A stretch of 64,000 nt of DNA from NCBI GenBank assembly GCA_943736015.1, contig OX031063.1, positions 40,068,672 through 40,132,671 on the forward strand, in the 5' to 3' direction. The notes beneath the pieces are model-generated. The model was not told where the DNA came from. It made no database searches and worked only from the letters and a program-made list of their open reading frames with translations. How positions within the stretch are numbered: the stretch's first letter is position 1; the number at the start of each line of letters is the position of its first letter. Below, in pieces: positions 10,333 to 63,600 of this stretch. The position numbers and the translations under genes were made by a program. Source of the stretch: Tridacna crocea (lineage: Eukaryota; Mollusca; Bivalvia; Cardiida; Cardiidae).

Positions 10333-10558
10333 TTTCTTACCAGACAATAAAATTTTGGACTTGATAGAATCAAAAGTATTTGAAGACGACAAATTAGATG
10401 TAGCTCAAATGACGAGTTATGTTTTAAATAGGATAGAAAACATTGTGGAAAAAGGAAATAAATGCTGGTTACCAGCATTTTCTCTTTTTCCCATAATGTT
10501 TTCAAAAGCCCTCTTCTTCTGGCTCGTTAAAACTCTGGTCTGTGTGGTAAAAAGTTAA
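10333..10558 (-). mobile_element. Family A TTAA element
   Basis: L arm left, centre ATGCTGGTTACCAGCAT, R arm right, ending in a TTAA shared with the next copy. Confidence 0.75.
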
Positions 10559-10766
10559 CTCTTTACCAGACAAAAAAATTATGGACTTTACCAAATTGAA
10601 AGTGTTTCAAGATGTCAAATTAGATTTAGCTCAAAAGATGAGTTATTTTGAAAACGTGGTGGGAAAGGAAAAAATGCTGGTAATCAGCAATTTCTCCTTT
10701 CCTCACGTTTTCTAAAGGCTTCTATCCCAGAGCCATGAAAAGTCGGGATTTTGTGTAAAGGGTTAA
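10555..10766 (-). mobile_element. Family A TTAA element with paired arm changes
   Basis: Left core AAAACGTGGTGGG, right core CCTCACGTTTT: the family norm is AAAACATTGTGGG / CCCACAATGTTTT, so AAAACG faces CGTTTT. Shares its left TTAA with the previous copy. Confidence 0.8.
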
Positions 10767-10855
10767 ATATTCTGCATTTTTACACAGACATTTGGCTGTT
10801 TGTTGGCTTAATTTCAACACAAAATGCAACAGGTATGGTTTCACATTACCCACAC

Positions 10856-11081
10856 TTAACTCTGTACTACACGACAAAATTTTAGACTTGTTCAAATTGA
10901 AAGCATTTGCAGACGACAAATAAAGGTGACTGTAAAATTGAAATTTGATCTGGGAAGTGTAGAAAACTGTGGGAAAAAGAGAAAATGCTGGTTACCAACA
11001 TTTTCTCCTTTTCCCACAGTGTTTTCAAAAGGCTTCTTTCTCAGGGGCGTCAAAAGTAGGGATTGTGTGGTAATGGGTTAA
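10856..11081 (-). mobile_element. Family A TTAA element
   Basis: Complete; L arm left, R arm right with AGGGATTGTGTGGTAATGGG before TTAA. Confidence 0.85.
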
Positions 11082-11275
11082 CTCTTTATCAGACAGCAAA
11101 ATTTTGGTCTTGACCGAATCGAAAGCATATGCATATGGTCCAAATTGAAAGCAGACGACAATGAAGCTCAAAGGATATAGTATCTGTCAGGTTACCAGTA
11201 ATTTTCCATTTACCACAATGTTTCCATAGTCAAGTTTACTATGGAACCATATGGGGCCTTCATCAGACACCTTAT
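11078..11275 (-). mobile_element. Family A element, degraded
   Basis: Starts at the TTAA of the previous copy; L arm with an internal repeat of ATATGCATATGGTCCAAATT; right end lost. Confidence 0.5.
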
Positions 11276-11487
11276 CTAACAATCCTGAGTTTTAACAACC
11301 TTGATAAAGAAGGCCTTTAAGAACATTGTGGGAAATGGAGAAAATGCTGATAACCAGCCATTTTCTGCTTTCCCATGTTTTCTACCCTTCCCAAAACCAA
11401 TTTTGATTTTTCAGTGACATTTTTCATCACCTGCAAATGCTTTCTATTTAGACCAGTGTTAAATTTTGATGTTTGGTAAAGAAGAGT
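11270..11487 (+). mobile_element. Family A element, ends decayed
   Basis: R arm with ACAATCCTGAGTTTT, hairpin AAATGCTGATAACCAGCCATTT, L end TTTGATGTTTGGTAAAGA. Confidence 0.65.
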
Positions 11488-11574
11488 TTTGGCCCTCTTC
11501 TTGCTGTTGTGAGCAGGCTCAGAAAGCACAGACCTTGCAGTCTGCTCAATAGTACTCAATGTCTTATATTTCAA

Positions 11575-11960
11575 CCCTACCATACAACAAAGTTGGGAAT
11601 CATCCAAAGCATTTGCAGGCGACAAATTAAATATGCTCAAATGATATAGCCACATAAAAAGAACGTTTTTGGGGATATACTGTCCGTCTCTGCTTGCGCC
11701 CATCTGTGCGTCAGTTTGTGTGTCCATCTGTGTGTCTGTATGTGTACATAATACTGTCAAAGTGCTTCCAGGGGTATAAAGTCACATTGACATGCTGTAG
11801 TTTTTCCTTGAAGAAAGCTATCAGTATGTTGTCTGTATTGAAACATTCTTGGAAAAAGCAGAAATACTGCTTACCAGCATTTCTCTCTTTTCCCTTGTTT
11901 TCAAAAGAATAGTTCTTTTCGTGTGGTGAAAATTATTTGGTAAACTGTTAAACATTCTGG
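11575..11960. mobile_element. Fragments of family A
   Basis: 11575-11645 is an L-arm end (CATTTGCAGGCGACAAAT); 11840-11955 holds a decayed core (AAATACTGCTTACCAGCATTT) and an R end. Between them is unrelated T/G-rich sequence. Confidence 0.45.
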
Positions 11961-12295
11961 CATAATCAATTTTCAATCTTGAATATTTACCCATGATTAC
12001 CATTTCATGCATACATGACCGAGAAGAAAAAGTAGTGCAGAACTATTTGCATACAGCAGGATTACACAAACATAGTATTACCCTTATTACCATAATGTAA
12101 GCTTAGCTTTTATAACTTGTTATGAATTATCCGCTGTGCCTATAGTAGTATAAGAGATCTGGCATTATAGTAAGAAATCTGAAAGAGGTCCAATAAAGGG
12201 CAATTTATGCCCATTTATAGAGAGTTCCAAATGTGGTTTTGGAATCAAAGAATTTCATATTTTCAAATATTTCCAGGTTTACTGCCATCACAACT

Positions 12296-12475
12296 AGAGC
12301 TTCACATGAATTCCAGAGTACAATGGCAGGATCAATTCTGTTGGTCTAAACTGTATGAGAGATGGAAGAACAGATGTCTGAAATAATTCAACATGTGTGC
12401 CAATGGATGCAAAGAAGACTCGGGTCCATGATGTAAGCTCCCTGGCCTCGGCCAGTGGATCAAAAGGTTGCATTT
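12296..12475 (+). mobile_element. 3' part of a tandem-repeat (pearl-like) element
   Basis: ATGGCAGGATCAATTCTG near the start and CTGGCCTCGGCCAGTGGAT then CAAAAG at the end match the 3' region of the element at 44030-44931. The hairpin CTGGCCTCGGCCAG remains, but the usual CTAA is lost. Confidence 0.5.
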
Positions 12476-12624
12476 TTAGGATACATAAAATTGAAAATCA
12501 AGACATTAGACATCTCTTTCATCGTGTTTAATATTGCCAACATAATATACTCATCAATAATATTAATGAAACAAAACATGAAAGTACAGTACAGGATCAC
12601 CAACAACACTTGCCACACCACATT

Positions 12625-12855: not shown

Positions 12856-12924
12856 GAGTTTTAACGAGATAGCCAGCTATTTTTGACATATAGTAATCTC
12901 TCTATCAAATACAGCAAATCTAAA

Positions 12925-13620: not shown

Positions 13621-13691
13621 TGTAAAGGTGGCTCTTACAGATTTATAATCATGTGATGAATTGGGTCGAAATCATGTATCACTCTGATGTA

Positions 13692-14145: not shown

Positions 14146-14177
14146 GCCCCCTTTTGCTAGAGCATGACTCAGTAAAT

Positions 14178-15802: not shown

Positions 15803-15904
15803 AGGTCTCAAATCTTTATAATTTATCTAAAGGATCCAAAAAGGGTGTTTCATGCATCTGCAAAAAGTACAGACCCAAGTCAGCCTGTGTAGTCGACCCT
15901 GGCT

Positions 15905-16129
15905 GACCTTTACTCCATAGATACTCATTTCTACGCATTGCCTGTAGGAGCCTTTGGAAAACATTGTGGCAAAAGGTGAAATTGCTTGTCACGAGCAATT
16001 TCACCCTTTGTCACAATGTTTTCTATGCTCTAAACAGGTGTCATACACACATAAGAAACGGCTTCGTCCTTGCTGTTATCTAGGGTCAATAACAGATTAC
16101 ATAGAAATGTCTTATGGGGTAAAGGGTTA
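15905..16129 (+). mobile_element. Family B element
   Basis: CCTTTACTCCATAGATACTC at left, GGGGTAAAGGGTTAG at right, hairpin GTGAAATTGCTTGTCACGAG with its complement. The left end is fused to a family C palindrome (15850-15905). Confidence 0.8.
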
Positions 16130-16215
16130 GAAATTTTTTGATCATGGTAAATTAACCGTATTTCCAAGGACCATTCTACCTTTGGATGCACTTTAGACAC
16201 TTAAGATGACATTCC

Positions 16216-22200: not shown

Positions 22201-25200
22201 AGTATAGTTTTGGAGATATGCTCCGGACAAAGAACTGGACGCTGCCCGCCCGCCCGGACGCCCGCCACGGGTGATCCCATAATACGTCCCGTCTTCGACG
22301 GGCGTATAAAAAGGAGAAAATGCTGGTCACCAGAATTTTCTCCTTTTGCCACAATTTTTTCAAAAGGCTTTTTCCTCAGGTCGTCAAAAGTCATGATTGT
22401 GTGGTAAAGGGTTAAATTTTTTCTTAACCCATAGGCTACTAAGTACATTTAAATGACCTTTTGCTGACAGTGAAGATCAAGATCAGACTGCACAAAATGT
22501 GCATGTATGGCATTTAATGGCATTTTCAACATTATTTCAGTTATATCGCAGCACCTAGGGTACCTATCCATACTTTCCTAAAGTTTTTATTTTTACCAGT
22601 GCTCCACACAATATTCTTTTCAAGTCACTGGCTCCTTTTCCACATAACCATCACCAAAACAAAGATCAGCAGTGAGAAAGGAATGAATCCTGTCACAATG
22701 ACCATCATCAATCCTTGGAGAGAAATTGAACAAGCAGGGGATTGAACCCTGTTCTTGAGTCCTGTATGCTACCTGCTGATCCAGGCTGGTCAGTAAAGCT
22801 TAAAATCGAAAAAGAGTAAAAAGTCTTACCAAATCCAAAATTTTTCTGAGTTTCAGCGGAGCTGGGCCTGAGACATTACTTGGAACTTGGCTTGTAAAGT
22901 ATACAATGGAATCACTCACGATACCTTCTATATTTTTTCTGGCATTTGCTGGAGCAAAATAATTTATTAATTAAACTTAAAAATCCTTTAACTTGTTACC
23001 AAATGAAAAAATTTTAGACTTACACAAATTAGAGGTAATTTAACCCTTTCCCAAACAAGGCCTGATTTTTACGTGTCTGCAGTAAAAGTCTTTTGAAACC
23101 ACTGCGGGAAAAGGAGAAATTGCTCGTAACAAGCAATTTCTCCTTTTCCCACAGTGTTTTCTACCCTTTTTGAGAACTTTCTGCCATTTTCTCCAAATCA
23201 AAAATTGTCATCTGCAAACTCTTGCGTTTTGGAAGGGTCCAAAATTTGTCGTTTGGGAATGGGTCAAGACATAAAACAAGATGTATATAAAATTATTTCA
23301 TTTGTCTTTGAAAGTACAGAAAACAGTGTGGGGAAAAAAAAAAGAAAATGCTGCTTTCCAGCATTCTCTACTTTTCCCTCATTTTTTTTTTTTTTTTCAA
23401 AAGCTTTTCCTTGGAGTTGTCAAATCTAAGAATTGATTGCTAAAAAGTTAAATTAATACCTCCTTGACAAAGTTGCAAAACATGACTTCAAAACTGTTGC
23501 CGTTAAGCCATGGATTATCCACAAGACTAATGTTTAACATGAATGTTTAAAAAAAAAATGCGGCATAAGGTTATTAAGAAAGTTTTGTTTTTATTCATCT
23601 CTCATAAGTATTCTCTAATGCATGTTGTCTATACCAGTCAATTGCCAAATCTTAGAATTCAAAATTCCTACAACTCAAAGTCCAATGAAATAACTCTAAT
23701 ACTGCCTATGAGTGCAGAATACGGTATCTTATTCCATATTGGATGATGTTGAGTCTGACATGGAAATTTTCATAAAGAAGCAAGAGTTCAATATGGATTT
23801 TTCAAAATGAGGCTAATATCAATATTTGACTGGAAGAGTAGTGCACCGAAGTCTGTTGTCAACAAAACAATTCTTATAATATGTGTTTTTCAATTACTTA
23901 AAATGAAATGGCCCTATTCTTGTTGTTTACTTTAAAGTCAATACGGAAGTGTAAAATAATGAGGTCATTTAACATGTTTGGATACAATACTGAATTATAC
24001 TGGAAAAGTACACTGCAGAACCAGCCTATATTTTGGACGAGGCAAAAATTCTGAATTCTATTGGATGTGGCCTCGTCCAAATTATTGACTGGTTCTACTG
24101 TGTACTCATCCAATAGAATTCAGTATTGTGCTCAAGTATATCAAATAACCTCAAATACTTGGTTGGTGTAATGCATCCGGGAAGATGAATTAAACTCTCT
24201 TGTACCAGATCATAGCTCACATATAGGTTAAATATAGAAAAGTGATAAATCCTACCTATTGCAAGTATCAGATCTCTTCGTGTTGCAAATCCGACTAAAT
24301 ACTGAGATTCTAAAGACACCACCACAGGAAAACCATTATGTTCTGTCTCTTTTAAAAGAGTTTCTGGAAAATTCAGACATAAAATAAATAACACTCTGAA
24401 AATGGGACCTGTTTATCTTTCATTATGGTGCAACTCACAAGTTGAGCTTTCAGAACTACACAAGATTTAAGAAACTGTGCTTTAACCCATTACCACACAA
24501 TCCCTACTTTTGACGCCCCTTAGAAAGAGGCCTTTTGAAAACACTGTGGGAAAAGGAGAAAATGCTGGTAACCAGCATTTTCTCCATTTCCCACAGTGTT
24601 TTCTACCCTTCCTAGAACAACTTTTAATTTTTCAGTCACCTGTATTTTGTCGTCTGCAAATGCTCTCAATTTGGATCAGTCTAAAATTTTCTCGTGTGGT
24701 AAAGAGTTAAAGAAAATCAGATAGGATACAGATGTTGCACTTGTATTAACCCTACAAAAAACAATCCCGAGTTCAACGACCTAAACAAAGTATTACAAGC
24801 ACAAAATGTCAATCAGTAACATTTTCTCCTGTTCCCAAAATGTTTTCACCTTATCCAAGGGCAAGCTCTATCATTTAAACCACATGTGTCTTCTGCACAT
24901 GCTTTGGAATTGGACAAAGGCTAAAATTTTGTTAACTCTTTACCAAAGGACAAAATTTAAGCCTGGTCCAAATTGAAAGCATTTGCAGACGACAAAATAA
25001 AAGTAACTGAAAATTTCGAATTTCTTTTGTGAAGGGCAGAAAAAATTGTAGAAAAAGGAGAAAATGCTGGTTACCAGCATTAATGCTGGTTACCAGCATT
25101 TTCTCATTTTTCCATAATTTGTTCAAAATGCTTCTTTTTCCGGTTCGTTAAAAGTCGGGATTGTGTGGTAAAGAGTTAGAGATAACCTTTCACAAGACAA

Positions 25201-37200: not shown

Positions 37201-40200
37201 TGGTTTTTTACAACTATGAGATGGAAGCCTTTTGAAAAAGTTGTGGGAAAAGGAGAAAATGATGGTGACCAGCATTTTCTCCTATTCCCACAATTTTTTC
37301 TAACCCTGCTGGAAACAAGTTTCAATTTTTGGATTACATTTCTTCTGTCGTCTGCAAGTGCTTTCAATTTTGACCCATCTAAAATTTTATCGTTTAGTAA
37401 AGGGTTAAGCCTTTACCACACAATCCCAACTTTTAATGACTCTGAGAAAGAAAGCCTTTGAAAACATTGTGGAAAATAGAGAAGATGCTGCGACCAGCAT
37501 TTTCTCCTTTTCCCACAATGTTTTCAACCCTTTCCAAATCAACTTTCCATTTTTGAGTCACATTTATTTTGTTGCTGCGAGTGCTTTCAATTTTGACCCA
37601 TCTAAAATTTTGTTGTTTGGAATGGGGTTAACATACCTGGGTCTCATAACATCTGCTGCAATGGTTGTATGTGTAAATTCTTCTTTATTGTCTAGGTATG
37701 GGTATCCATTTAGGCGGATATGTGCGTCATAGCTAATCAAAATGTTAAGGTCAAATAATAAGTTGAAAAACAAAGAGCGACAAAACACCTCTAAACTTCT
37801 AACCCCGACAGAGCATTTCATGGCTTCATTTGTCTTGCCACCCAGTGTACTTAATAATCAGAATTCACAGAAAGTAATCTTTTGAAAACATTTTGGAAAA
37901 AAGGATAACAATGCTAGTAAACACCATTTTTCCATTTCCCCAAATTTTTTCTGCCTTAGCCAAATTAAATTTCTTGCCTCAAAATGCTTTAAAATTTGTT
38001 CATTCTAAAAATTTTGTCCTTTGGAGAAAAGTGTAATATCTGCAAATTATAGTGTTAACCCTTTACTCCATAAGGCATTTCTATGGCATCTCTAATTGAC
38101 CCTAAATAACAGCAAGGATGAAGCTGTTTCTTATGTGTAAATGACACCTTTTGATAGCAAAGAAAACATTGTGACAAAAGGTGAAATTGCTCGTCACGAG
38201 CAATTTCACCTTTTGCCACAATGTTTTCCAAAGGCTCTGACAAGCAATGCGTAGAAATGAGTATCTATGGAGTACACGGTTAAAGGATTTGATATTTGCA
38301 AATGACAGTTTTGCATTTTCTAACCAAACAGTGTTTCTCTGACCCTGGAGATGACACTTAAATTTCAAAACATCATGAAAAAAGGTGAAAATGCTGGTAA
38401 TCAGTGTTTTCCGTTTTACAACAATGTTTTCTACCCTTTGTCAGAAAAATCCCTTCATTCAAACTACATTTAATCAATTACTGCACAATGCAAAGTTTTA
38501 ATTACCTTTGGAAGCTAGACTTTTGAAACATTGTGGGAAAATGCTGGTAGCCAGCATTTTCTTTTCCAAAATTGCTTTATAACCCTTTCCTCCATCGATA
38601 CTCATTTCTACGCATTGCTTGTAGGGGCCTTTGGAAAACATTGTGGCAAAAGGTGAAATTTCACCTTTTGCCACAATGTTTTCTATGCTATCAAAAGGTG
38701 TCATATATACATAAGAAACAGCTGCAGCCTTGCTGTTATTTAGGGTCAATTAGCAATACCATAGAAATGCCTTATGTGGTAAAAGGTTAACTACCCTTTC
38801 AGTAACATATCTAACTTTAATACAAATGGTTTAAATGTAAACCAGTCTACAATATTGCTTTGTAGTAAGTAGTTAACATATTGTCTGCAAACACTTGGAA
38901 TTTGGTCAAGTCTAAAATTTTGTGGTATGATAAAGAGTAAAAAGGTTTAACCTTTGAATACATAAATCTTTTTTTGTACTTGAAGAAAGTGTGTGCTGGC
39001 TTAAAAACAAATTATTAGACTATAATGTCTGCTGTAAAGGATACATTCCCTGTTTTCCAAGAGCATCTCCCACCCATTTGCTTGCCATTACTGCAGCCAT
39101 CAATGGGACGATGTACTGCAAACCACCAGTCAGTTCAAACATAATTACAACCAGTGATACTGTAATGAAGACAGTTTGAAGTAAGTTCCAATATAACAAC
39201 AACATATGATAGTGTACATGCACTGAATAATACATCTTATCAACCAGTGATACTGCATTAATATTAATTGATAAAAAAAGATCAAAATAACACTTTATAT
39301 AACAGATGATACACTGGTTTTTGTAATCTGTATTCCATTCTAATACCAGATATTAAGACTCTGGAACCTTCTTGACACATTCTGTTTTAGTCAATACCAT
39401 TTTATATCATAAAAGTTGACTTCAGAAAGATCCATGGATAAAGTCGAAGGGAAGAAACACCCTTTGAATTGAAACATAAAAGACTGAAAGAAAAGAAAAA
39501 ATACTGGTTACTCGCAATTTCTCCTTTTCTCGCAATGCTTTGAAAAGTCTTCGCTCTCAGCTTTAATGTAAATATAGGATTGTTTAGTAAAGGATCTTAT
39601 CTGATGATTATCTGTATTTTATAAAAATGTAGTCAGAGGCATTTGATATGTTTCAGGCTGTAATGAGTTCACCATTTTTCAGGCAATAGTCATATAACAA
39701 TCCTGAGAAAGAGGGCTTTAGAAAACAATGAATGAATGAATTAATAGTGTTTTATGGCCCTTCGACAACTTAGGTCATATTGGGCGCACTTACTTAGTAA
39801 ACAATAATGCGAGGTGAAAATAACATACATGTGCAACATAAGACAAACATGATAAATGAGGAATGGATGAAACACAAAATGATGCCCCTTTTGTCGCCTT
39901 TTACGACATGCATGCTGTCACTTTTGTTCCGCCAGATGAAATGGCAGATGTGACGATCGCGGGACTGCAGTGGTTTATTCTTATACCCCCGATTAAACCA
40001 CACGGGGTCCCACAGGCCAACTGATTCCCATTCCAAACCCTATTTACATCAAGAAAAAAAATATAGGATTTGGAATAAGAACTACCCAGCCTGCTGCAAT
40101 CCTACGAATTACGAGGAAAGCAGCCGTTTGTCTCTAATTATAGTCGCCTTCTACGACATGCCATAGAGAAAGGCCGAGGTCCTATTCTATAAAGTAAAAA

Positions 40201-43200
40201 ACCCCCGGGACCCCACGGGGACTTTAGAAAACATTGTAGGAAAAGAAAATGCTGGTAACAAGCATTTTCTTTGTATCCATGTTTTCCATTCCAAACCCTA
40301 TTTACATCAAGAAAAAAAATATAGGATTTGGAATAAGAACTACCCAGCCTGCTGCAATCCTACGAATTACGAGGAAAGCAGCCGTTTGTCTCTAATTATA
40401 GTCGCCTTCTACGACATGCCATAGAGAAAGGCCGAGGTCCTATTCTATAAAGTAAAAAACCCCCGGGACCCCACGGGGACTTTAGAAAACATTGTAGGAA
40501 AAGAAAATGCTGGTAACAAGCATTTTCTTTGTATCCATGTTTTCAACATATTCAAAGAAGAATCTAATAATTTGACCTGTATTGAATCTGTCTTTTGCAA
40601 ATGCTTTCAGTTTTAAAGAATCTAGAATTTTGTGGTGTGATAACGAGCCATTGGTTTACCTGTCATACGAGTCACCCCTCCTAAAGCAGCCGCTGCTCCC
40701 ACCATGGCATACAAACCTGGTGTTATTATACACTGGTTTTCTGATTGACACATACTTTTAAATAAGGGATTGTCATGGTTAGCACTGAAAAGGGAAAGTA
40801 CATAAAAATCAACTCATTTCTTAAATCATTACCAAACAAAAATATTTTAGGCTTGTCCAAATCAAAAGCATTTGTAGATGACAAAATAAAAGTGACTGAA
40901 AATTTAAAGTTTGTTTTGTGAAGGGTAGAAAACATTGTGGGAAAAGGAGAAAATGCTGGTAACCAGCATTTTCTCCTTTTCCCACGATGTTTTCTAAAGG
41001 CTTCTTTCTCAGGGTCGTCAAAAGAAGGGATTGTGTGATAATAGGTTAATGTGGCATTGGAGATAGTGTATATTATGATCAGACTGACCAAAACAACTTC
41101 TACAGCCCTACCACGAACTTAATTGAATAAAATTGCGTCAAAATACTGTTATATGGTATGATATTCAGCAAAAATCTGGCTTACATTGTTGTTCTGAGTC
41201 TTTAATTTGAACCCCTACAACACTGACACTGAATTAAGACTCTTATGTGTACAGTGTAGGTGAAAATCAGACAACACAGAATGTGCAGTCTAATCTTTAA
41301 TCTACATTGGCTGCTTTTTTGCCAGAGATTCTGACACAATGGCCTGGACAAATTTGAAAGACCTAACTATCATACCAGTCTTTCATGTGAAAATTTACCT
41401 CATTAGCAATTTCAATATACACAGCCTTACAACTGAAATATCTGCATGTTTTGTACTGCTTTACTCTTTAGCAAACAATGAATTGGGAAACTCTACTAAA
41501 TCGAAAGATTCTGCAGACAATAAATTTGAAAGTGACACAAATTAACCAAAGATCTTTGACAGGGTAAAAAACATGGTGGGAAAGAAGAAAATGCTGATTA
41601 CCTGCATTTTCTCCTTTTCCCATCATGTTTTTAAAGGCCCTCTCCTTCAAGGTACTTAAAACTCAGGACGGTACAGTAATAAATAGTCTGCTTCATTACT
41701 TAGCACTTCAAGATGAATCATCACAAAGTCTTTCATCTGAAACTTTACATCGTGAGTAAATTCTCCTTTTGACTGAATGTTTTTTAACCCTTTACTCCAT
41801 AGATACTCATTTCTACGCATTGCTTGTAGGAGCCTTTGGAAAACATTGTGGCAAAAGGTGAAATTGCTCATCACGAGCAATTTCACCTTTTGTCACAATG
41901 TTTTCTATGCTTTCAAAAGGTGTCATACACACATAAAAAACGGCTTCATCCTTGCTGTTATTTAGGGTCAATTAGAGATACCATAGAAATGCCTTATGGG
42001 GTAAAGGGTTAAAAAGATCTGCCAACATGAAAAAAGCATCATCTGCAGGAAACAATTTTTCAATGGAAGTAAGAAAACAAAATTTATTAAGACTACTTAC
42101 ATAACAAGCTGTTCCATGCCAATACCAATGATACGCCCCATGATGGCTCCAACAGCCATACTAGGGATGAAGAGACCTGATGGTACCTGAAATCAACATA
42201 ACGTATAGGTAAACTAGATAGTAAACCTTGTAAAAGTCTCTTTTTTTGTATAAATCTTATTAAAACCAACAAGGAAGTGAGAAGAAATCTTATTTAAGTG
42301 TTAATCGTAACTGGCAAAGATTTAGATCTGCTCTATCACTAATGGCTAACTATCACCTTATTTTTGTTTAATTCTTTAAAAACAACAATATTCTAGACAA
42401 TTAAACTGATAGAATTTTCATGCAACAAATTTATTGTACCTTTACAGATGATTTCTGTTTTTGAAATGGTAGAAAAAAAGTGATTATCAGCATAGTATCT
42501 TTTTCCTACTGTATCTTCAAACATTTTCTTTCTCATGGTTGCTACAGGTTAAACAATAAAAGATTTATGCCAATCATCCAATATCAAGAAGTACTGCTGT
42601 TGGTATTTTGCATCTCTAGGTACCAGCACATATTCCAGTTGCCTCTAAAATTAACTAGCCATAAACTTTTTCATATGAATCCCTGAAACATATTCTTCTT
42701 AATTTCCATTCACCTTGGAGCTATCAGGACACTATTTTCTTGTACTAAATGTACTTGGCAAAACTGATTATCAGAATATCAGAAAATGGTCTATGGGCTG
42801 AAAAAAAAAAAAAAAAAAGTTTTGGGTCTACTCACTTTCATGCCGAATGTAAAAATTGTTATTACACCTTTAAATATAACAGCCAGAGCAAGCTGCCAGA
42901 GCGCCCTTTTGACCCCATCTCCAGCATAAGTACTAGACATGTAGGATTGTGGATCAGAAAAGTTTCTTTTATAGTCACTGAAATAGATTTTCAAAAATAT
43001 CATAGCCTCTCCTACTAAACATTGCGAGTTCCTTATCACAATAAGCACATGAAAGACCTTTGGAGCTACCTATTTCTTGTCCCAAGTATTGCTTAAGCCT
43101 TTATTCCGCAATCCTGAGTTTTAATAACCCTGAAAAAAAAGGGCTTTTAAAACATTGCAAAAAAGAGAAAATACTGCTAAATAGCATTTTCTCCTTTTTC

Positions 43201-46200: not shown

Positions 46201-49200
46201 CTCCCAAAACAAAACAAAAACAATTGAGCTATCACTAAATGTGATCATACCCCAAACCAGCTCCTTGTCACTAAACAGCTCTTTGTCATAGAATGCAGAA
46301 CGGTTTAGTACAAAAGAGTTTAAAAAAATATATATTACAAAGGGCTATAACTCTGAAAACAGTGGGAAAAGATTTATGGTTCTTGCACAGTGCACTTTAC
46401 TTTGATGTGATTCAAAATCATATGAAGTTTGAAGTGACTAACTTTTGTACTTTGCAAGTTATGCCCCATTTTAAAAATCCAAAGTTAAAATTAACAAAGG
46501 GCAATAACTCTAAATGTAGCAGGAACAGAGTTATAGTTATGAAAACTGCACTTCTTGTTAATGTGGTCCATCTGTATATGAAGTTTGAAGGTACTAGCTT
46601 TTATACTTGGAAAGTTATGCCCCAGACAAAAATCCAAATTAAAATTTACAAAGGGAAATAAATTGAAATAGTGGGAATATAGTTATGGTACTGGTAAAGT
46701 GCTCTTTTTTTTATGGTGATCTAATTATATATGAAGTTTGAAGTCCGTAGCTTTTGTACTTTGGAAATTAAGCCCCAGATAAAAATCCAATGTTAAATAT
46801 ACAAAAAGATATAACCTTTAAAATAGTGGAAAAAGTTATGCTTCTTGTACACTGCACTTCTCTTTAATGTGGCCGATCTGTACATGAAGTTTTTAGTTGC
46901 TAGCTGTTTTATTTTGGAAGTTAAGCCTCGAACAAAAATCCAAAGTTTGAAGTCACTAGCTTTTCTACTTTGGAAGTTATGCCAAGCTTTTAGTGACACA
47001 CGGAAAGACAGACATGGTGACTCCAGTATACATCCCCCATACTTTGTTTATGGGGGGTATAAGCATGATAAAAACACATAATGTAGTTAAATTTGTTTGA
47101 ATCTAGAAGCAGACTTGTGCTGCAAGTAGACAGTATCCCTTTCTTGAACCTAACAAAAGAAAGTATGTGATGAGAGAATTTCTGTATGCCTTCCATGGAA
47201 GAAAAGAAGTTGCACCTAACTATCCCTTTTGGATATGATTTGCTATATCAAAGAAAAACAATTAGTAAGGATTTCTATCCTGGCTATTTGTTGACTCAAA
47301 AGCACATTATCAGACCATTTTGTTTTTGATTGCCTATGACCCCATTGATGCAGAGTTACACTTAACTCAAAAACTCCAACATTTCTCATCAGATTACAAA
47401 TAGTGTCCAGACTGGTAAGAAGAGAAAAAAAAACTTCTTTATGCCTGTGATGGGGACCACAATCTTGATTCAAAAACATGATAATGACTTGTTAAAGTTT
47501 AAAAGAAACTTAACAAGATCTATAGAGATGTAATCTATTAGTCAGTAAACTAGCTGATAAGGAGGAAAAGGCGTAGAGTATTCTAAAAATAGAACACTAC
47601 ACTGCATATTTTGCTAAGTTGCCGACATGAGGAAGGCAAATGATCGTCTTTAAGATTTTTCTAATCCTTCACTTTACCATTATAATTTATTTAAAATATG
47701 TTTGGAAAAAATATCTCCAGCTGTAAGAGGTGGTAATTCAAGTTTATTTTATAACTATTCATGTTTTGAGAATCAGTAATGATCGATAGTGTGACGTCAT
47801 TTAAACAAATATCCAGACGCTTTACCTGTGGGAAAAAAAGTGTGATTTTCGTAGGATAAAGGGGTGGATTTAGTGAGTTAGTAACAGGTAAGGATCATAA
47901 CACTCTGCTGTCTTGTCCAAATTGATAAAGTTAATTAGTGATAACCTGTCATCCTTTGTCTTCGATTGCCGATATTTCATGAATATAGGCCTGGTCGGGA
48001 CTGTTTGTTAGGCGAAGTTTTTTCGCTGTGAAAGCTTGATGATGCAAATTTGAGTCAATGAAGACGACTTTTTCACCCTGTACCATACTTCCTCAAGTTC
48101 CTGCTTCAGTCTTTCTCCACTTATCTCATGAGTTGAGACAAAAATGTCAATAAAAAATCCTTTCGACACTTATTTTCGCCAGTTAAAGAAAAACTACAAC
48201 TGGCGAAAATGGCGACAGGCAGCGTGGGTCCCGCTGCTGCATGTTATTGATCTTCGTATCGGAAGGTTACAGGAGACAAGACGGGTACCAGTTTAAAAGT
48301 TTGAGTTGATGTTCGCTTTAAATACAGATTTTTTGTGACAAAACGAATAATGGTTAGGGTCGGCGGAAAAATTTTAAAAAAATGTTTTGGAACCTTCTTA
48401 TATTTTTTTTCTGGTTTTGGGAAAATTGCAGTCGGCGGGTTTGTAAATCAACTAATAAAAAAATTCTCGCCTAAATATGTTCAGTACTGACAGAGATATC
48501 ATAAAATGTTAAACAAGGATGATGACTGCGACCACATTAGGCCTATGATAATAACTTGTTTTTCCCCATGTAAACATTCAAGCTAAAACTAAATGGCTCC
48601 TGAAGACATTTGCAGCAGAAAACTACTTTATTGATTTCAAATAAAGATTTTTTTTTTAATTTGCCAAATAATAAACACTTTGTTTTACGTAGCTTTTAAT
48701 CAGGAGTGCAATTTATGATGAAAAACACCTGTACTTACCCCTAAAGCCCCTATAATCATAAATGGGATCAGCTCCTGCAGGTACCAAGGTTCATTATATT
48801 CTATATAAAACATGACTAGGTGATCGTTGCCAAATGGATTGATGGATCGGAGGACAAATGCAGCAACCAGGGCACAGAAAAAGGACCTCCAGAGAGTCTT
48901 CAATGGGAAGTAGTAGCTCACCTGTAGAAATAGAGAATTATTACGAGGTTTTGAACCATTCATTTGCTGGCTAATTCTCGAAAGAAAACTACTACGAATG
49001 ATGAGATCTCGAAAAAATTTACAGGCAATGCAAAAGTAACTAAAATGAACACCTTAATTTACAGAGAATATGGGGTCTTATCTTTGCTTTAACTCTTTAC
49101 CAAACGACAAAATTTTAGACTGGTTCAAATTGAAAGCATTTGCAGACAACAAAATAAAGGTGCCTGAAAAATTGAAATTTGTTCTGGGAAGGGTAGAAAA

Positions 49201-52200
49201 CACTGTGGGAAAAGGAGAAAATGCTGGTTACCAGCAATTTTCTCCTTTTCCTACAGTGTTTTCAAAAGGCTTCTTTCTCAAGGGCGTCAAAAGTAGGAAT
49301 GTGTGGTAATGGGTTAAAATGTATATTATCTCAATCAAAAATCAAAGAATCTACATCTATTTCTCTAGCTGAAAAAGTTAAAACATTCTGACAGTCTGCA
49401 GTATTCAATCATTAGTGTAGGGCACAAATTTGAGAAACTTTCTGACAAATAATGCCTTTATTCAAAATATCTGGAATTTTCAAACACCAATTTCATTCAT
49501 TTAGTGCATGAAAGGTTCTGCATTTCATTAGTCAATAACACAACTTTGATTCCTCTCTGCTGTATATTTTCTCACAACTCACTGAGTGGAATTAGATTAA
49601 CTGTTCTCCTTCTTAAGCATTCACAATTTATCAACAAACATAAAGAAAGCGACTGTGTTAAACAAAAAAAGAAACACTTACCTCTTCCAAACTGAAGAGT
49701 ACACCACCAATAGGAGCACCAAAAGCTACACTAACACCTGCTGCAGATGCAGCAGACAACACCTGGAAACATAGCACAGAATCATTGTAAATACAAGCAA
49801 TCATGGCATATGGGTTTCAGATGATCAGATTCTATTTAATGTATTTGTATTGACAAGATATTCTATAGGTTTATTCCCTTCATGATTCCCCTGCAGCTTA
49901 TGCTTTGAAATATCCTTATGTATTACCTGCTATATCTTCTTTTTTCCAATGTTTTAAAAAGCCCCTCTTCCTCATGGTGATTAAGGCAAGGAACATTAAA
50001 CAAGAGCTTCACATAGCGGCACTTAAGCACGAGGGGCTTGTCAAAGAAATGGCTTAAAACTAAGAACACCTGCAGATATCCAAATATTAAAAGTCACAAG
50101 CACAACTACACATCATAGAGATTTATTGTTGTGAGTTTGAAAATGAAAACAGCAGGAGGAGTTGTGCATTCAAGAAATTGTTGATGGAAAGATGGAAGAC
50201 TAGAGCCATATCATTATATGACCTTTTGGGTGTATAAAAAGTAAACTGATAATCCTTAGCCTGCTAAAATAATTATTGAAATAAATAATTTCTAGTCATT
50301 AGTAACAATTTAAAGTTATTTTCAACATCCAAAGCGTTAAAAGTCTTTACACAAAGTTCTAAAATATTTCTGAAACCCTGGACACATGGAATGAAAACTC
50401 TATACTATCGGTAAATGGAATCAACTAGACCTGTCACAATGAGAACCTTCACATCCCCAACAAAAGTGACAAAGGAGGAGGATGTGCATGGTATACAAAA
50501 AGCAGCTGAATTCAACAAGCGATACAAAAAGTTCCCTCCTGCACATGTACAGTTTCTGCTTGACAGGTTTGCAAAGTTTAAGTACATTGAGAGCAAAACT
50601 GAGGGAAGAGTCTTTTTTATAAAGTCATTATGCACAGACTCATTTTAAGCAATAAAAAAGTCTATTTCAATATTTTTGCTAAGTACAGGTACATTTTAAT
50701 ATATCTGTCTTCTCTGGAAACTCATCTTGTGCTTGTTTAACCCATTATCAAACAACAAAGTTTTAGGTTCATCCAAAATCAAAAGCCTTTGCAGACAACA
50801 AATTAAAAGTGACTGAAAATTTGATTTTTTTTTGTGAAGGGTAGAAAACATTGTGGAAAAAGGAGAAAATGCTGGTTACCAGCATTTTCTCCTTTTCCCA
50901 CAGTGTTTTCTAAAGGCTTCTTTCTCAAGGTCGTCAAAAGTAGGGATTGTGTGGTAATGGGTTAACTCTGTAATAAACAACAAAGTTTTGGAATGTATCA
51001 GTTAAAGTATATGCTGTTAACAAGAAAGGTGGCTAAAATGAAGAAAGCAGTCCTTAACAGGGTAGAAAACATTTCCGGTAAAGGAGAAAATGCTGGTTAC
51101 CAGTATTTTCTCCTTTTCCAACTATGTTTTCATAAGCGTTCTTTCTCACAGTCGTTAAAAGTCATGATTGTTTGGTAATGGGTTAAATCAGGTTATTTGT
51201 TCCATAGATGTGATCACTGAGACAGGATTAACCGTATACCTATATGTGTGTCCACACAAAGACAACCTGACCTCAGTTCACCTCAAAAATGTTTGGAAGG
51301 GCATAAAAACAAACTAACCTCTCTCTTTTTAGCCTCATTACTCCCATACTTGGGAAACAAGTAGGAGAAAAAGTTCCCACAGCAGCAAGCCACATGAACA
51401 TAGGGTCCTTCTTTGCCAAGGCTCAAACCTGCTGCCACAGACAGCATCATACCAACAGACTTGGTCAGCAAGGTCCACTTGCCAAGATAACCTCTGATGA
51501 TAAAACCACTCAAAATGGTTTTGATCTGAAGTGAAAACAAGAGTGCTATTAGTCCTTAAGTGCTAACCTGAGTAAGGTCATTTAAGACGGACAAAGCTGA
51601 GATCCTGGTTGTGATGATGTACAGACTGTAAGTGACCTATCTTTTTACCAACTTGACTTATTGTTTTATTAGTTAGAGATTTTATCAAGACAAACATTCT
51701 GAAAAAATTTCGTCAGTATTTGACCAAATTTTGAGCTTTGTATATCAAGACAGACATTCTGACAAATTTTACTGGTATCTGACTGAAAATGTGGCTTCTA
51801 GAGTGCACAACAGGTAAATGATGATAACCTCACAGAGCATGCCAGACACAACATGATTATAAAAGCTTGCCTTGAACACTTTGCGCTCAGAAGAGCTAAA
51901 AATAGTCACAGCTCGGAAGTGAACTAGCAAACCTTCAGTTTTAAGCCCTGTTTGTTATAAACCCTTTCCCAAACAATCCCTGGTTTTTACGGGTCAGGAA
52001 TAGAAGCCTTTTGAAAACATTATGGGAAACAGAGAAAATGCTGGTAAATGGCATTTTCTCCTTTTCCCACAATGTTTTCTTCCCTATCATATAGAAAAAT
52101 CATCTTTTTAGCAACTTTTAATTTGTCATCTGCAAAATACTTTCAATTTGGTCTGATCCAAAATTTGCCGTTTGGGAAAGGGTTAAATGAGGTAACAGTC

Positions 52201-55200
52201 TTGACACTGAGGGAAGCACTGGAACTGACATTGTTTCAAGGAGGAGGTTGGGTGGGGGGGGGGGGGGGACATTGCTGGAGAAGAGGAAATACTGGTCACC
52301 AGTCGCACTTAAGTCTTTACCAGACGACTAATTTTCAGACTTATTCCGATATTTTGCAGATGGCAAATTACATGTGATTCAAATGAAGGGACTTTTCTGT
52401 GATAAGGTAGGAAACATTGTGGAAACAAAAGAAAATGCTCTATACCAACATTTTCTCCTGTTCCAACAACCAGATTTTCTCCTTTTCCAACAAAGTTATC
52501 AACAGCCTTTAAAGTTACGGCAGTTGCTGAAATTCGGGATTTTTTTATTCATGGGTTAAAATATAATTTTAGACCATAATGTGAATAATTCTACAATACA
52601 TTAATTTTAATACTACATCATTCTTACCTCTGGGATACCAGATCCACATGCGTAGGGGGCGAACACACGAACAAAGAGAGCGGCAGTCAGGGCAAACAGA
52701 CAGCCCCAAATCATATAAAAGAAATATTTAATCATATAAGACCCTCCTCCACTTGTCCCAATTCCAAACATCTCTGCCCAGGAAAACCACTGAAAATGAT
52801 TAGATTAAAACATTGAAAAAGTGTAGAAGAAATTTACTTAACTCTTTACCAAACAACAAAATTTTAGACTGGTCCAAATTGAAAGCATTTGCATACGTCA
52901 AAATAGAAGTGACTGAATTTTGAAATTTGTTTCAGGATGGGTAGAAAACACTGTGGCAAAAAAAGAAAATGCTGGTTACCAGCATTTTCTCCTTTTCCCA
53001 CAATGTTTTTAAAAGGCTTTTTCTTCAAGGGCATCAAAACTCGAAATAGTGTGGTAAAGAGTTAACCCATTTCAATACAATCCCTACTTTTGACGCCCCT
53101 GAGAAAGAAGCCTTCTGATAACACTGTAGGAAAAGGAGAAAATGCTGGTAACCAGCATTTTCTCCTTTACCCACAGTGTTTTCTACCCTTTCCAGAACAA
53201 ATTTCAATTTTTCAGTCACCTTTATTTTGTCGTCTGCAAATGCTTTCAATTTGAACCAGTCTAAAATTTTGTCGTGTGGAAATGAGTTAAGAAATGAAAC
53301 GAAATGAATCGAATTTGAGGAAAACCCAAGATTTATATACGGAAGGCTAGAAAACATTTCTGGAAAAGGAGACTATGATGATTACCATGCAGAATTAAGT
53401 TTCGACCCTTTACTCCATAGATACTAATTTCTATGCATTGCTTGTAGGAGCCTTTAGAAAACATTGTGACAAAAGGTGAAATTGCTCGTGACGAGCAATT
53501 TCACCTTTTGTCACAATGTTTTCTATGCTAAAAAGGTGTCATATACACATAAGAAACCGCTTCATCCTTGCTGTTATTAAGGGTCAATTAGGGATACCAT
53601 AGAAATGCCTCATGGAGTAAAGGGTTAAATACTAGTCTTCTTTAGCAGACGGGAAAACCAAGGTTAATCCTTGACCACAAAATCCATAGTGTTTAACAAC
53701 CTGGGGGAAAAGCCTCTACAATACATGGTGGGAAAGAAGGAACTGCTGGTAACCATGCTAATTTTATGTTTCAATTACAATTTAACCCCTGCTAAATAAA
53801 CAAAGTGAAACTGAAAAGCCCACAGTAAAAACAAAATTTTTGCAATTTTTAAGGTAATTTTTTGTAGGAAAACTTGTCCTTCTTCGGCAGTTCAAATCGA
53901 AGATCAGACTGCACAAAACATGCCGTCTGATTTTGATCTACACTATCCACAAAAGGTCAGTGCACTGCAATTAGCAGCCTCAGATATAATTTGTTGCCTG
54001 CAAATGACTTCAATTTAGACAATTCTAAAATTTTGATACTTGGTAGAGAGTTGTATCACTTTGCAAAGGACAAATTCAATGTACTTCAAAATATGAAATT
54101 TGTGTTTACAAGAACAGAAAACACAGTGGGAAAAGGCAAAAATGCTGATGAACAGCATTTTTCCTTATTCCACTGTGTTTTCTAAGGCTTTATCCTTTAA
54201 CCCTTTACTCCATAGATACTCATTTCTACATATTGCTTGTAGCAGCCTTTGAAAAACATTGTGGCAAAAAGTGAAACTGCTCAGGACGAGCAATTTCACC
54301 TTCCAACAATGTTTTCTACACTATCAAAAGGTGTCATATACACATAAGAAATGGCTTTCATCCTTGCTGTTATTTAGGCTCAATTAGAGATACCATAGAA
54401 ATGCTTTATGGGGTAAAGTGTTCAGGTCATCAAAACACCGGATAGTTTAGTAACAGGATACCTGTGAGCATCTCTCTTCATCCAGTGTTGTATCATTGGC
54501 TGACCAGCAGCACTGTTCTCTATTTAACCAGAATGCATCTCTACAAACCCCTTCCTTGATATCTGATAACCAGGATGCACCTATATCTATAAGACCAGCT
54601 AAAGCACCTGAAATTGAAACAGAATAGAATCTCCATTGTTGGAGGACAAGAAGGGTCCAGAAATTTGCTTGCTTGGCTGTTTGGTGTTCAACTCTTTACC
54701 ACACAATCCACAAGTTTTAACGGCCCTGAGGAAGGCACCTTTCGAAAACACTGCAGGAACTCCCAATGTTTTCTACCCTGATGGAAACAAATTTCAATTT
54801 CAAGTTACACTTATTTTGTCGTCTGAAATGTTTTCAATTTGAACCAGTCTAAAATTTTGTTGTTTGGTAAAGAACTAACCCATTACCACAATCCTGGGTT
54901 TTTTCTATGCTGAAGAAATTGTGGTAAAAAGAGGAAATGCTGGTAAGCAGCATTTTCTACTATTCCCGAAATTGTGTCTACTTTTTCAGACACAAATTCT
55001 ATAAGTTGAGCAACATTTAGTTGTTGCTTCAAATGCTTTCAAGTTGGACCATTCTAAAGTTTCATTGTTTGGTAAAGAGTTAATATGGTTTTCAACATTA
55101 CTTCAGTTACCTTGAAGTGTCCATTGTACTTATCCATAATTTCGAGGACTTTTTTCTTACCAGTGCTTTGCAGAACATTCATTCCCAGCCACTGGCTGCA

Positions 55201-61287: not shown

Positions 61288-61430
61288 TTAACCTTTTCCC
61301 CTCACAGCAGATGACCTGGCTCCATCTCCTACTCGACCACTTTTGAAAATATTGTGACAAAATAAGAAATTTCTCATAATGAGCAATGTCTCCTCTGATA
61401 CAATAATTTCATGGTAATCCATAAATCAAA
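61288..61430. mobile_element. Family B-like remnant
   Basis: TTAACCTTTTCCCCTCAC, AATATTGTGACAAAATAAGA and TCTCATAATGAGCAATGTC recall the B hairpin. Confidence 0.4.
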
Positions 61431-61794
61431 CATTTTTTTATTATGATGTTCAAAATGTTACAAAAATGCTTTTAGAACTTGTCTGCAACCAATTTCTCTG
61501 AGAAGATGAAGACATAAATGTCAATAACCTGTCCAATATTTCCAATAACTTGCACTGATCATATCGATCTGTTTGACAGTAAATTGAAATAAAAGATGAT
61601 AAATATCATAGTAAATCCAGTTCTTGGCAACAGCTTCATTAAATGCTTTTTTTGTCATGTAATTTTATTTGAAACGGAAAACATAGGCAATGGTAATGGC
61701 ACATGAAAAGGAACAGCGAAAGTTAACCCTTTCTCAAACAAGCTGGAGTTTCAACAATCAGGACAAGAAAAAACCTCTGAAAAATCTCTGAAAA

Positions 61795-61990
61795 CACATA
61801 TATGCCAGAAGGGGCTTGTCAGTAAAATGGTTTTAAATCGAGAACACCAGTGGAAATAGTTAAAATTTTAAGAGTCAAATGCACAACTTAACATCATACA
61901 GATTTATTGTGGTAAGTTTGGAGTTATTCCGATGAAAACTTTAGGAAGAGTTGGGCACAAAAGAAATTACTGACGGACACACAAATGTAC
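61795..61990 (+). repeat. Dispersed repeat E
   Basis: GAAGGGGCTTGTCAGTAAAA, TTTTAAGAGTCAAATGCACA and CATCATACAGATTTATTGTG, as at 50000-50210. It adjoins an R-end fragment of family A at 61723-61790. Confidence 0.65.
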
Positions 61991-62395
61991 TGACCGATGG
62001 CTGATAAGGGCCAGCCTTGACATGATACAATCCTTCATGCATATTAAACGGGTAGAAATTACAAAAGCAACACATGTGGGTGCCAAAAGTATCTGCAATA
62101 TTATTTGTTTTTAGTGAAAGCTCCGTAGGTTGTAAAAGAAACATAACTGTATCCAAAATATTGATGGTTATCTGCCCTGTTGTATGGGTTCCTCATTTGA
62201 TAGTCAAAAACTTATCCAAAGGTTGAAGTAAAGATTTCAATTATGACAAAGTATAAAATGCCAAATTTTTTTTCAGGGCACAGCAGTACCTCCATTTTTC
62301 TTCAAAAACAGCAAAGCTAAAAATCATAGCAAAAGCTGACTGCCAACAATGAGCAATATCTTTCTTTTCACATGTATTTATATTTATAACACATT

Positions 62396-62632
62396 TTAAC
62401 CCTTTATCACACAATCCCAACTCGTAACAACCCTGAAAAAAAAAGGCTTTTGAAAACAGTGTGCAGAAGAGGAGAAAATGCTGGATGCTGGTAACCAGGA
62501 TTTTCTCCTTTTCCCTCTATGTTTTCTACCCTTCCCACGAAAGATTTCAGCCTTTCAGACTGATATTTTCATTGTTGTCTGCAAATTCTTTTCATTTGGA
62601 TTTGTCTAAAGTTTTGTCATATGCTGAAGACT
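62396..62632 (+). mobile_element. Family A element with tip micro-duplication
   Basis: AAATGCTGGATGCTGGTAAC: ATGCTGG is repeated on the left arm only. Right TTAA lost. Confidence 0.8.
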
Positions 62633-62645
62633 GAACGCCGTTTAT

Positions 62646-62874
62646 TTAACCCTTTACCCCATAAGGCATTCCTGTGGCATCTCTAATTGACCCTAAATAA
62701 CAGCAAGGATGATGCCGTTTCTTATGTGTGAATGACACCTTTTGATAGCATAGAAAACATTGTGGCAAAAGGTGAAATTGCTCGTCACGAGCAATTTCAC
62801 CTTTTGCCACAATGTTTTCCAAAGGGTCCTGTAAGCAATGTGTAGAAATGAGTATCTATGGAGTAAAGGGTTAA
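62646..62874 (-). mobile_element. Family B TTAA element
   Basis: Complete, perfect hairpin GAAATTGCTCGTCACGAGC. Confidence 0.92.
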
Positions 62875-62882
62875 ATAACTCC

Positions 62883-63111
62883 TTAACTCTTTACCACACG
62901 AGAAAATTTTAGACTGGCCCAAACTGAAAGCATTTGCAGACGACAAAATATAAGAGACTGAAAATCTGAAATTTGTGTTGGGAAGGTTAGAAAACTTTGT
63001 GGGAAAAGGAGAAAATGCTGGTAACCAGCATTTTCTCCTTTTCCCACAATGTTTTCTAAATGCTTCTTTTTCAGGGGTGTCAAAAGTAGGGATTGTGTGG
63101 TAATGGGTTAA
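62883..63111 (-). mobile_element. Family A TTAA element
   Basis: Complete; starts nine bases after the B copy. Confidence 0.9.
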
Positions 63112-63371
63112 GATGGTTTCTAAGTAGTCTGCTGCAAATTTGCTTCAGAAGGTTTAAAGTTAAGTGATAATCATATTGATCATGTATTGATACGAAGCAA
63201 GATCAATGCAAACTCCTGGACAAAACACACACTTCTTTCTACAACTAATTGACTTTTTTTTCCCCACCTGTAAAGAAACCCTTTCCATCCCTTGATCAAA
63301 CAGCACATTTCAGCTTCATTCATATTTCAATTGCACATTACATATGTGGCACAAGGGTTGGAATTTGTGGC

Positions 63372-63600
63372 TTAACCCATTACCACACAATCCCTATTTT
63401 TGACGACCCTGAGAAAGAGGCCTTTAGAAAACATTGTTGGAAAAGGAGAAAATGCTGGTAATCAGCATTTTCTCCTTTTCCAACATTGTTTTCTACTCTT
63501 CACAAAACAAATTTTAAATTTTCAGTCGCTTTTATTTTTTCGTCTGCAAATGCTTTGAATTTGGACAAGCCTAAAATATTGTCGTTTGGTAATGAGTTAA
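63372..63600 (+). mobile_element. Family A TTAA element with paired arm change
   Basis: TGTTGGAAAAGG faces CCTTTTCCAACA; the usual pair is TGTGGGAAAAGG / CCTTTTCCCACA. Confidence 0.9.

Follow-up and report, generated by a model that had tools for sequence, protein, structure and literature searches.

Do the two arms of a repeated hairpin change together because selection keeps the fold, or because one arm is repeatedly copied from the other? The question is raised by a window of 64,000 nucleotides from the bivalve Tridacna crocea (the whole stretch of DNA that was analysed here), which hosts a ClC-type transporter gene amid dense copies of a MITE. We recognise about 97 copies of this element, a piggyBac-like MITE of about 230 bp that is flanked by TTAA and has a core formed by a 71-nt near-perfect palindrome. 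MITEs often fold into hairpins, which may have a function or may merely be a by-product. Separating the changes acquired by landed copies from those fixed in amplifying lineages is a direct test of whether the fold is used. The original prediction listed several copies with matched changes on both arms, and proposed either selection or template switching as the cause.

The element and its copies

Ninety-seven core rows were kept at a core score of at least 14, from 113 clusters, and these consist of 90 copies of a family A and seven of a family B. The element is short, homogeneous in length and present in high copy number, as is typical of MITEs. One core with a duplicated tip is counted twice among the 97 rows (25039 and 25082), which also include a tandem duplicate (40226 and 40484); all four are absent from the set of 70 family A copies, with a core score of at least 25, that was used to analyse arm pairing. 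Core positions are numbered 1 to 71, so that the partner of position i is 72-i.

The seed copies and consensuses of both families carry TTAACYCTTTACC-like terminal inverted repeats at both ends. Compared with the CC[C/T]T terminal motif of piggyBac-type MITEs, family B and many A ends have CCCT, the other A ends being CTCT, CTCA or CCCA. Of the 57 A-profile hits that span the whole element, 47 have TTAA near the left end, 43 near the right end and 37 at both, as raw counts without a shuffled control. A Pfam scan of ten window ORFs found no transposase or autonomous element: seven had no match and three belong to host-type families. Rfam 15 gave no match at the gathering score across the whole window. 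Sequence patterns had no matches in viral contigs (two patterns) or prokaryotic contigs (one pattern), results that say little because these collections contain only viruses and prokaryotes.

When folded as single-stranded DNA, three of four cores gave strong hairpins (z -13.6 to -15.7). A well-preserved family A copy (40815..41050, plus strand, core 40926-40996) has a predicted unbroken stem of 34 bp with one G.T pair, and a family B copy (62633..62882, minus strand, core 62751-62821) one of 32 bp. Further B copies are located at 15895..16140 (plus, core 15955-16025), 38044..38289 (minus, core 38160-38230) and 41778..42022 (plus, core 41837-41907), with a decayed one at 54192..54424 (plus, core 54250-54318). 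The fourth folded core (z only -2.9) is a single old core, here called C (61343..61412, minus), whose flanks are matched by neither the A nor the B profile. Slippage-like products also occur at the hairpin tip, namely a 19-nt duplication at 25063-25100, a 7-nt insertion in 62450-62528 and tip deletions.

Matched arms in individual copies

The matched arm variants that were originally listed do exist, but most of them fail as independent paired changes. The CACTG/CAGTG arms at 24482 and 49089 reflect a change at pair 10 from T-A to C-G, a state that is found in six A copies (24482, 49089, 53062, 23095, 16960 and 54116). The two copies concerned (24481..24716, minus, core 24535-24605; 49084..49317, plus, core 49194-49265) form one subfamily with a third (53061..53296, minus, core 53115-53185). 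Flank sequences place all three in a single five-copy clade (support 0.87), in which 62989 is T-A at pair 10 and 10963 is deleted there; the C-G state they share is therefore most simply explained by one event. The AAAACG/CGTTTT arms of the family A copy at 10554..10766 (plus, core 10648-10714) turn out to be a coincidence: in the alignment they result from two substitutions on the left arm and the loss of 3 nt from the right, with no paired substitution. The family A copy at 63370..63605 (minus, core 63425-63495) does host a private paired change, as predicted from its TGTTGG/CCAACA arms, with pair 14 going from G-C to T-A.

Three of the examples involve family B. The GTGACA/TGTCAC arms at 53400 correspond to an A-T at pair 15, but the copy is a member of family B (53397..53633, plus, core 53455-53525), in which pair 15 is G-C in three of the seven copies, a one-sided intermediate in three and A-T in this one. 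The arm change at 23039 is real (pair 28 T-A), yet it is part of a B-type tip, together with a T.G at pair 33. The copy itself (23040..23273, minus, core 23093-23163) is C-G at pair 10 and A-type at pairs 16 and 23, its flanks match family A along the full element length, and it could be an A/B recombinant. The symmetric tip deletion at 38578 is also real, removing 17 nt flanked by AATT from a family B copy (38572..38802, plus, core 38632-38685), but it can be explained by a single slippage between AATT words; as AATT is self-complementary, the product of such a slippage is symmetric. Descent of the paired variants from a few ancestral subfamilies had been named in advance as evidence against the prediction, and for the listed examples this is largely what we find.

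Paired changes in resident copies

Across the 70 family A copies there are 303 cells with a change on one arm and 37 with changes on both, 19 of which are Watson-Crick. A plain shuffle of the arms gives a mean of 9.6 such pairs and reaches 19 in 1 of 1000 trials. However, this excess shrinks once copies are matched for age: shuffles within strata of 14, 7 and 5 copies give means of 13.8, 13.5 and 12.4, and reach 19 in 169, 97 and 28 of 2000 trials, respectively. With pair 10 left out, the 13 observed pairs compare with means of 12.2, 11.4 and 10.4, and are reached in 898, 697 and 416 of 2000 trials. We thus reject widespread private compensation in resident copies. The expected excess of pairing over chance is seen against the plain shuffle, but against age-matched shuffles the resident A copies lie at or slightly above chance.

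A set of 40 ungapped cores that includes family B contains 30 both-arm cells, against 7.7 in shuffles (reached in 0 of 500) and 6-12 when the partners are slid, and 21 of the 30 belong to the four pairs that distinguish A from B. Eight pairs show a both-arm change in at least one of these cores, which does not exceed shuffles (5.9; 86 of 500) or slides (6-8). Taken with the collapse of most named copies into subfamilies, and with the chance-level private pairing that is left without pair 10, this is what would be expected if there were no structural constraint, that is, if the paired variants came from chance and common descent, with the core conserved as a sequence-specific site that is symmetric by accident. 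We consider this quite unlikely. All four A/B arm pairs have changed in a complementary manner on both sides, sequence conservation alone would not favour changes in the partner, and the excess of the true partners over slid positions argues against it too, although that excess comes mostly from one family.

The mismatches in the stem carry no mark of selection on an RNA strand, an explanation that we reject on the near-equal counts of G.T and A.C (91:80 on the element strand and 89:82 on the strand of the ClC gene). With no bias of G.T over A.C, nothing indicates that an RNA is maintained in each copy. Tip deletions are a weak sign of a DNA hairpin, with 5 in the tip bin among about 88 copies against 0-4 in other bins.

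Changes between source elements

Ten of the 67 columns distinguish the consensus core of A from that of B. Eight of these positions form four complementary partner pairs (16, 23, 28 and 33), which leaves the central base and a change on a single arm at pair 15. Random placement of four plus four changes would give such full partnering with a probability of about 3e-7. Within family A, the consensuses of deep, mid and young groups (delimited by eye on a midpoint-rooted tree of the flanks) have an identical core, with 0/67 changes, whereas their flanks differ at 20/146 positions between deep and young (p 6e-4 against the core), 12/143 between deep and mid (p 0.011) and 13/149 between mid and young (p 0.011). 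The core of the C-G subfamily differs from all three by pair 10 alone; for this clade the contrast of core with flanks is not significant, either against mid (2/67 vs 10/149, p 0.35) or against young (2/67 vs 13/152, p 0.16).

At the level of source elements there are five paired and no one-sided changes, against 19:303 cells in copies (p 1e-6). This contrast persists when pair 15 is put in the one-sided class (p 8e-6) and when the whole B stem is treated as one event (p 0.004). It comes from a single window and from few independent events in source elements, which are carried by one stem (B) and one clade (C-G). The possibility that the A/B flips arose from an ancestral same-base mismatch that was resolved in two ways was rejected on the pattern of such mismatches in A copies: A.A occurs at pair 28 in four copies, but no same-base mismatch is seen at pair 23, and those at pairs 16 and 33 are sporadic and vary in type.

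The same paired differences could have been produced by copying from arm to arm, through template switching or quasi-palindrome correction, in rare source elements. A single event at the birth of a family could then make several paired changes without any selection on the fold. Template switching is reported to make and keep perfect hairpins (PMC8794818), the slippage-like tip products described above are in keeping with it, and the A/B arm differences are all paired save for one side of pair 15. Nevertheless we regard this explanation as unlikely. Arm-to-arm copying should affect resident copies as well, where both-arm changes are at or slightly above age-matched chance. It also leaves unexplained why shared changes avoid the core (see below). 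The B changes are incomplete in two copies, 23095 (the copy at 23040..23273) and core C, which is B-type at pairs 16, 28 and 33, A-type at pair 23 and has paired states of its own at pairs 8 and 34. These mixed states suggest several steps rather than a single copying event. The idea that one arm is repeatedly rewritten from the other is not supported in its steady form, since resident copies should show its marks and do not, while rare events in source elements may have occurred.

Divergence of core and flanks

Within each group, the core shows less raw divergence than the flanks, in deep A (231/1520 vs 747/2957, p ~1e-15), mid A (100/1370 vs 470/2995, p ~1e-15), young A (30/803 vs 121/1820, p 0.003, or 0.027 without CpG) and family B (16/450 vs 70/1104, p 0.03). 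This is not an artefact of having found copies by their cores, as the core is present in 77 of 79 long-flank hits and in 69 of 75 short-flank hits that extend to the core side. A crude MK-type test in which A and B were each left undivided gave no significant result (p 0.21).

Nineteen young copies allow old and new changes to be separated. Changes private to one of these copies are similarly frequent in the core (29/1270) and the flanks (81/2768; p 0.30), whereas changes common to at least two of them are depleted in the core (25/1270 vs 141/2768, p 1e-6), and the interaction between private or shared and core or flank has a p of 0.03. We attribute the lower raw divergence of the core to shared source-level differences, on the basis of the 19 young copies. 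An earlier version of the private-change test, which defined rarity over all 90 A copies (at most 3 copies; core 15/1270, flanks 29/2768, p 0.74), was superseded because the flanks, being more variable, are filtered more strictly by that definition.

A host could in principle keep these copies because each gives rise to an RNA hairpin of miRNA or siRNA type, or forms a structure with a regulatory role. Low raw divergence of the core, the strong hairpins predicted for three of four folded cores (as single-stranded DNA) and the MITE-derived miRNA families on record (PMC1784062) would fit such a role. The comparable frequency of private changes inside and outside the core in the 19 young copies, the balance of G.T and A.C on both element and gene strands, and the absence of Rfam matches at the gathering score all make it very improbable.

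Discussion

That selection keeps the hairpin is supported in source lineages, where the arms of A and B are paired bar one side of pair 15 and shared changes spare the core, but not in resident copies, where paired changes are at or slightly above age-matched chance. We lean, by a small degree, towards the explanation that selection acts on the palindrome in the source elements while they amplify, and not in landed copies. Under this explanation, related non-autonomous piggyBac-like (TTAA) MITE families would have one palindromic core in common. While a lineage amplifies, changes that break the palindrome would mostly be purged and changes that are complementary between the arms would persist; once a copy has landed, its core would decay at the same pace as the remainder of the copy. 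When the element is mobilised, the palindrome may work in cis. A DNA-binding protein that acts as a dimer, be it the transposase or a factor of the host, might recognise it as a symmetric site, or it might be extruded as a DNA hairpin. The results suggest that the hairpin aids the spread of the element rather than serving the host; neither steady arm-to-arm copying nor an RNA function of every copy in the host is supported.

A bolder proposal, which we offer tentatively and think possible rather than probable, is that the core is a transferable hairpin cassette, found across the barely similar MITE bodies A, B and C. Amplification would need the fold and not the exact letters, and the cassette would evolve by paired substitutions as structured RNAs do, while being selected within mobile DNA.

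Among the closest likenesses that we have found are the CMITEs of Acropora corals, small TTAA-flanked piggyBac-like families of about 100 bp, in which an internal region of 75 nt is described as more conserved between families than the ends, and for which a role in transposition was suggested (Wang et al. 2010, PMC2872659). The element described here also has a conserved interior, as far as the description of the CMITE internal sequences allows a comparison, but it is longer at about 230 bp and adds the paired evolution of arms; a term count for that paper gives no occurrence of hairpin or palindrome. Stem loops of IS605-type elements on Borrelia plasmids, free-standing ones included, are reported to keep their pairing via compensatory changes and G-U pairs (PMC2775950). 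These are likewise stem loops of mobile elements with compensatory base-pair changes. However, they are bacterial and flank their elements, whereas the palindrome here lies inside a eukaryotic TTAA element and its paired changes occur between families, with little or none in resident copies.

The ends of piggyBac and piggyBat host palindromic motifs that are reported to be bound by paired cysteine-rich domains of a transposase dimer (PMC11707139). These are short, 19 bp in piggyBac and about 14 bp and imperfect in piggyBat, compared with the internal 71 nt found here. Hairpins ascribed to template switching share the perfect stems and paired changes of our element (PMC8794818); if it acted steadily, switching should also leave its mark on resident copies, which here show little or no excess. 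The MITE family MADE1 is reported as a source of hsa-mir-548 miRNA genes (PMC1784062), but a processed RNA is not indicated here. Among the papers listed by our literature search we saw none on the paired evolution of hairpin arms in TTAA MITEs of eukaryotes.

In this window, separating landed copies from amplifying lineages indicates that selection acts on an internal palindrome in the lineages that spread, and not on every copy that has landed. If this holds genome-wide, it could explain the conserved interior of some piggyBac-like MITEs, such as that reported for corals, and would suggest that amplification has a structural requirement in cis.

A piggyBac-like MITE with a palindromic core

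The window is eukaryotic and probably animal DNA whose introns are packed with one repeat. The full element is about 230 bp long with TTAACYCTTTACC-like ends, and among 57 element-length hits of family A, one of two families of copies (A and B), TTAA lies near the left end in 47, the right end in 43 and both ends in 37. Sixteen of 76 neighbouring element pairs abut (-16 to +6 nt apart; 13691-14147, 29249-29875, 36159-36792, 62396-63112 and others), and the junction at 13894-13943 is a single TTAA. The length, ends, TTAA flanks and abutting elements fit a piggyBac-like MITE; the abutting copies and the single-TTAA junction suggest that the TTAA of older elements may be reused by new insertions.

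A core search of the window gave 113 clusters; those scoring 14 or more for the core, 97 in all, went into the alignment, 90 from family A and seven from family B. One of the sixteen weaker clusters left out of the alignment, 61343-61412, was recovered by a covariance model at 44.6 bits. The cores at 40225 and 40483 are not independent, because a 258-bp unit found twice at 100% identity (40028-40544) duplicates one MITE core.

The core consensus is a 71-nt palindrome, with 35-base arms around one central base, so that position i pairs with 72-i. Four cores were folded as single-stranded DNA, and the predicted stem is an unbroken 34 bp at 40926 (z -13.7), 32 bp at 62751 (z -15.7), nearly unbroken at 23093 (z -13.6) and weak in the old core 61343 (z -2.9). 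Rfam gave no match at the gathering score over the whole window. At one hairpin tip there is an exact 19-nt tandem duplication (25063-25100, AATGCTGGTTACCAGCATT twice), which is a slippage or template-switch product.

Pfam scans of ten ORFs matched a GMC oxidoreductase (788-2608) and two ClC chloride-channel exons (39020-39352 and 48700-49053), all on the minus strand, with no match for the other seven; the three PDB sequences matched by the exon at 48700-49053 are all H(+)/Cl(-) exchange transporter 3. Tandem arrays with a period of 153-167 bp occupy five places (5157-6351, 20971-22231, 35005-35900, 44238-44647 and 46335-46947). Two more long hairpins with sequences of their own, 32237-32315 and 59029-59143, are perhaps other mobile elements. 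Short palindromes at 138-190, 256-320, 13510-13548 and 25312-25359, the clearest type being CGGATCAGCCTGCGCAG...GCAGGCTGATCCG, are by eye unlike the MITE core.

Paired differences between families

The consensus cores of A and B differ at 10 of 67 columns. Pairs 16, 23, 28 and 33 are changed on both arms, all four complementarily, switching G-C to C-G or A-T to T-A. The other two columns are the central base and one member of pair 15, a pair that varies among the seven B copies (G-C in three, one-sided in three, A-T in one). Both-arm cells number 30 in 40 ungapped cores, where shuffles give 7.7 (0/500 as high) and slid partners 6-12; since 21 of the 30 come from those four pairs, this total mirrors ancestry plus pairing. 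Eight different pairs show at least one both-arm change, a count that does not stand out from shuffles (5.9; 86/500 as high) or slides (6-8).

Two copies are mixed. The first, 23095, has T-A at pair 28 and T.G at pair 33 with A-type pairs 16 and 23, while 61343, in the model alignment, is B-type at 16, 28 and 33 and A-type at 23, with paired states of its own at 8 and 34 and numerous unpaired differences besides. If these are not recombinants, the A/B changes arose stepwise, each keeping those positions paired.

Paired changes in landed copies

The original prediction listed matched arms in seven copies, and every pattern is present, but most are not independent paired changes. C10-G62 is real in 24482 and 49089, yet is common to 53062 within one flank clade (support 0.87) that also holds 10963 (pair 10 deletion) and 62989 (T-A). 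Copies 53400 and 38578 belong to family B, and 23039 is an A element carrying a B-type tip. A single slippage event between a pair of AATT words would give the symmetric loss of the tip in 38578, since the self-complementary AATT occurs as a direct repeat in both arms. The arms of 10555 match, though through two substitutions and a deletion, and 63372 is a genuine paired change, private to that copy.

Across pairs 3-35 of the 70 family A cores that score at least 25, there are 303 one-arm and 37 both-arm cells, 19 of the latter Watson-Crick. Plain shuffling of right arms gave 9.6 (1/1000 as high), but this null pools young and old copies; age-stratified shuffles gave 13.8, 13.5 and 12.4 for strata of n=14, 7 and 5, with 169, 97 and 28 of 2000 reaching 19. 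Without pair 10, 13 were seen against 12.2, 11.4 and 10.4 (898, 697 and 416 of 2000 as high). The excess in resident A copies is therefore small at most and centred on pair 10 (C-G in 6, T.G in 12, C.A in 4), the only pair at which change may have recurred. With age matched, paired changes in individual copies lie at or slightly above chance.

This bears on the repeated copying of one arm from the other. Template switching can create and repair hairpins, according to excerpts of PMC8794818, and would match the arms, but its steady action should leave a paired-change excess in resident copies, where hardly any is seen; it may have happened, rarely, in source elements (amplifying lineages). An RNA role for each copy is not supported, since G.T mismatches are roughly as frequent as A.C on both the element strand (91:80) and the ClC strand (89:82).

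Proposed constraint in source lineages

Three groups of A copies, deep (n=24), mid (n=22) and young (n=12), were delimited by eye on a tree built from the flanks of 81 of the 97 copies. Their consensus cores are identical across 67 columns, whereas 12-20 of the 143-149 flank positions compared are different (p 6e-4 to 0.011). The C-G clade, A copies that differ at pair 10, yields weaker comparisons (p 0.016 against deep, 0.16 against young and 0.35 against mid). Flank-only profiles reach the core in 77/79 and 69/75, so core conservation does not come purely from finding copies by their core.

In 19 young copies, also picked by eye and with CpG sites excluded, private changes are alike in core (29/1270) and flanks (81/2768, p 0.30), whereas changes in at least two copies are scarce in the core (25/1270 against 141/2768, p 1e-6; interaction p 0.03). 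We infer that shared changes are mostly source-inherited and private ones mostly post-insertion, and the core thus seems to be under constraint during amplification and to change freely once a copy has landed. This reading draws on one window, two informative source-level branches and hand-picked groups. Two results go against it. An initial MK test, with the groups left undivided, did not reach significance (p 0.21), and cores show less raw within-group divergence than flanks (deep 231/1520 against 747/2957, mid 100/1370 against 470/2995, young 30/803 against 121/1820, B 16/450 against 70/1104, and the C-G clade 11/333 against 42/758, p 0.13), which we would explain by shared differences, an explanation checked in the young set only.

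Our main reading is that the symmetric core would be selected in source elements, acting as a dimer-binding site or an extruded hairpin; the proposal that selection keeps the hairpin is supported in this form, but not as an RNA role of each copy. Paired cysteine-rich domains of piggyBac-type transposases bind palindromes, although the sites described in excerpts of PMC11707139 are short and near the ends, unlike the core here.

Among described elements, the coral CMITEs come nearest: TTAA MITE families whose interiors are conserved and whose ends diverge (PMC2872659), a likeness at the level of description. Compensatory changes in mobile-element stem loops are described for IS605-type loops in Borrelia (excerpts of PMC2775950), another kind of transposon. 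What this case adds is that the arms evolve in pairs between MITE families, with little or no such change in landed copies.
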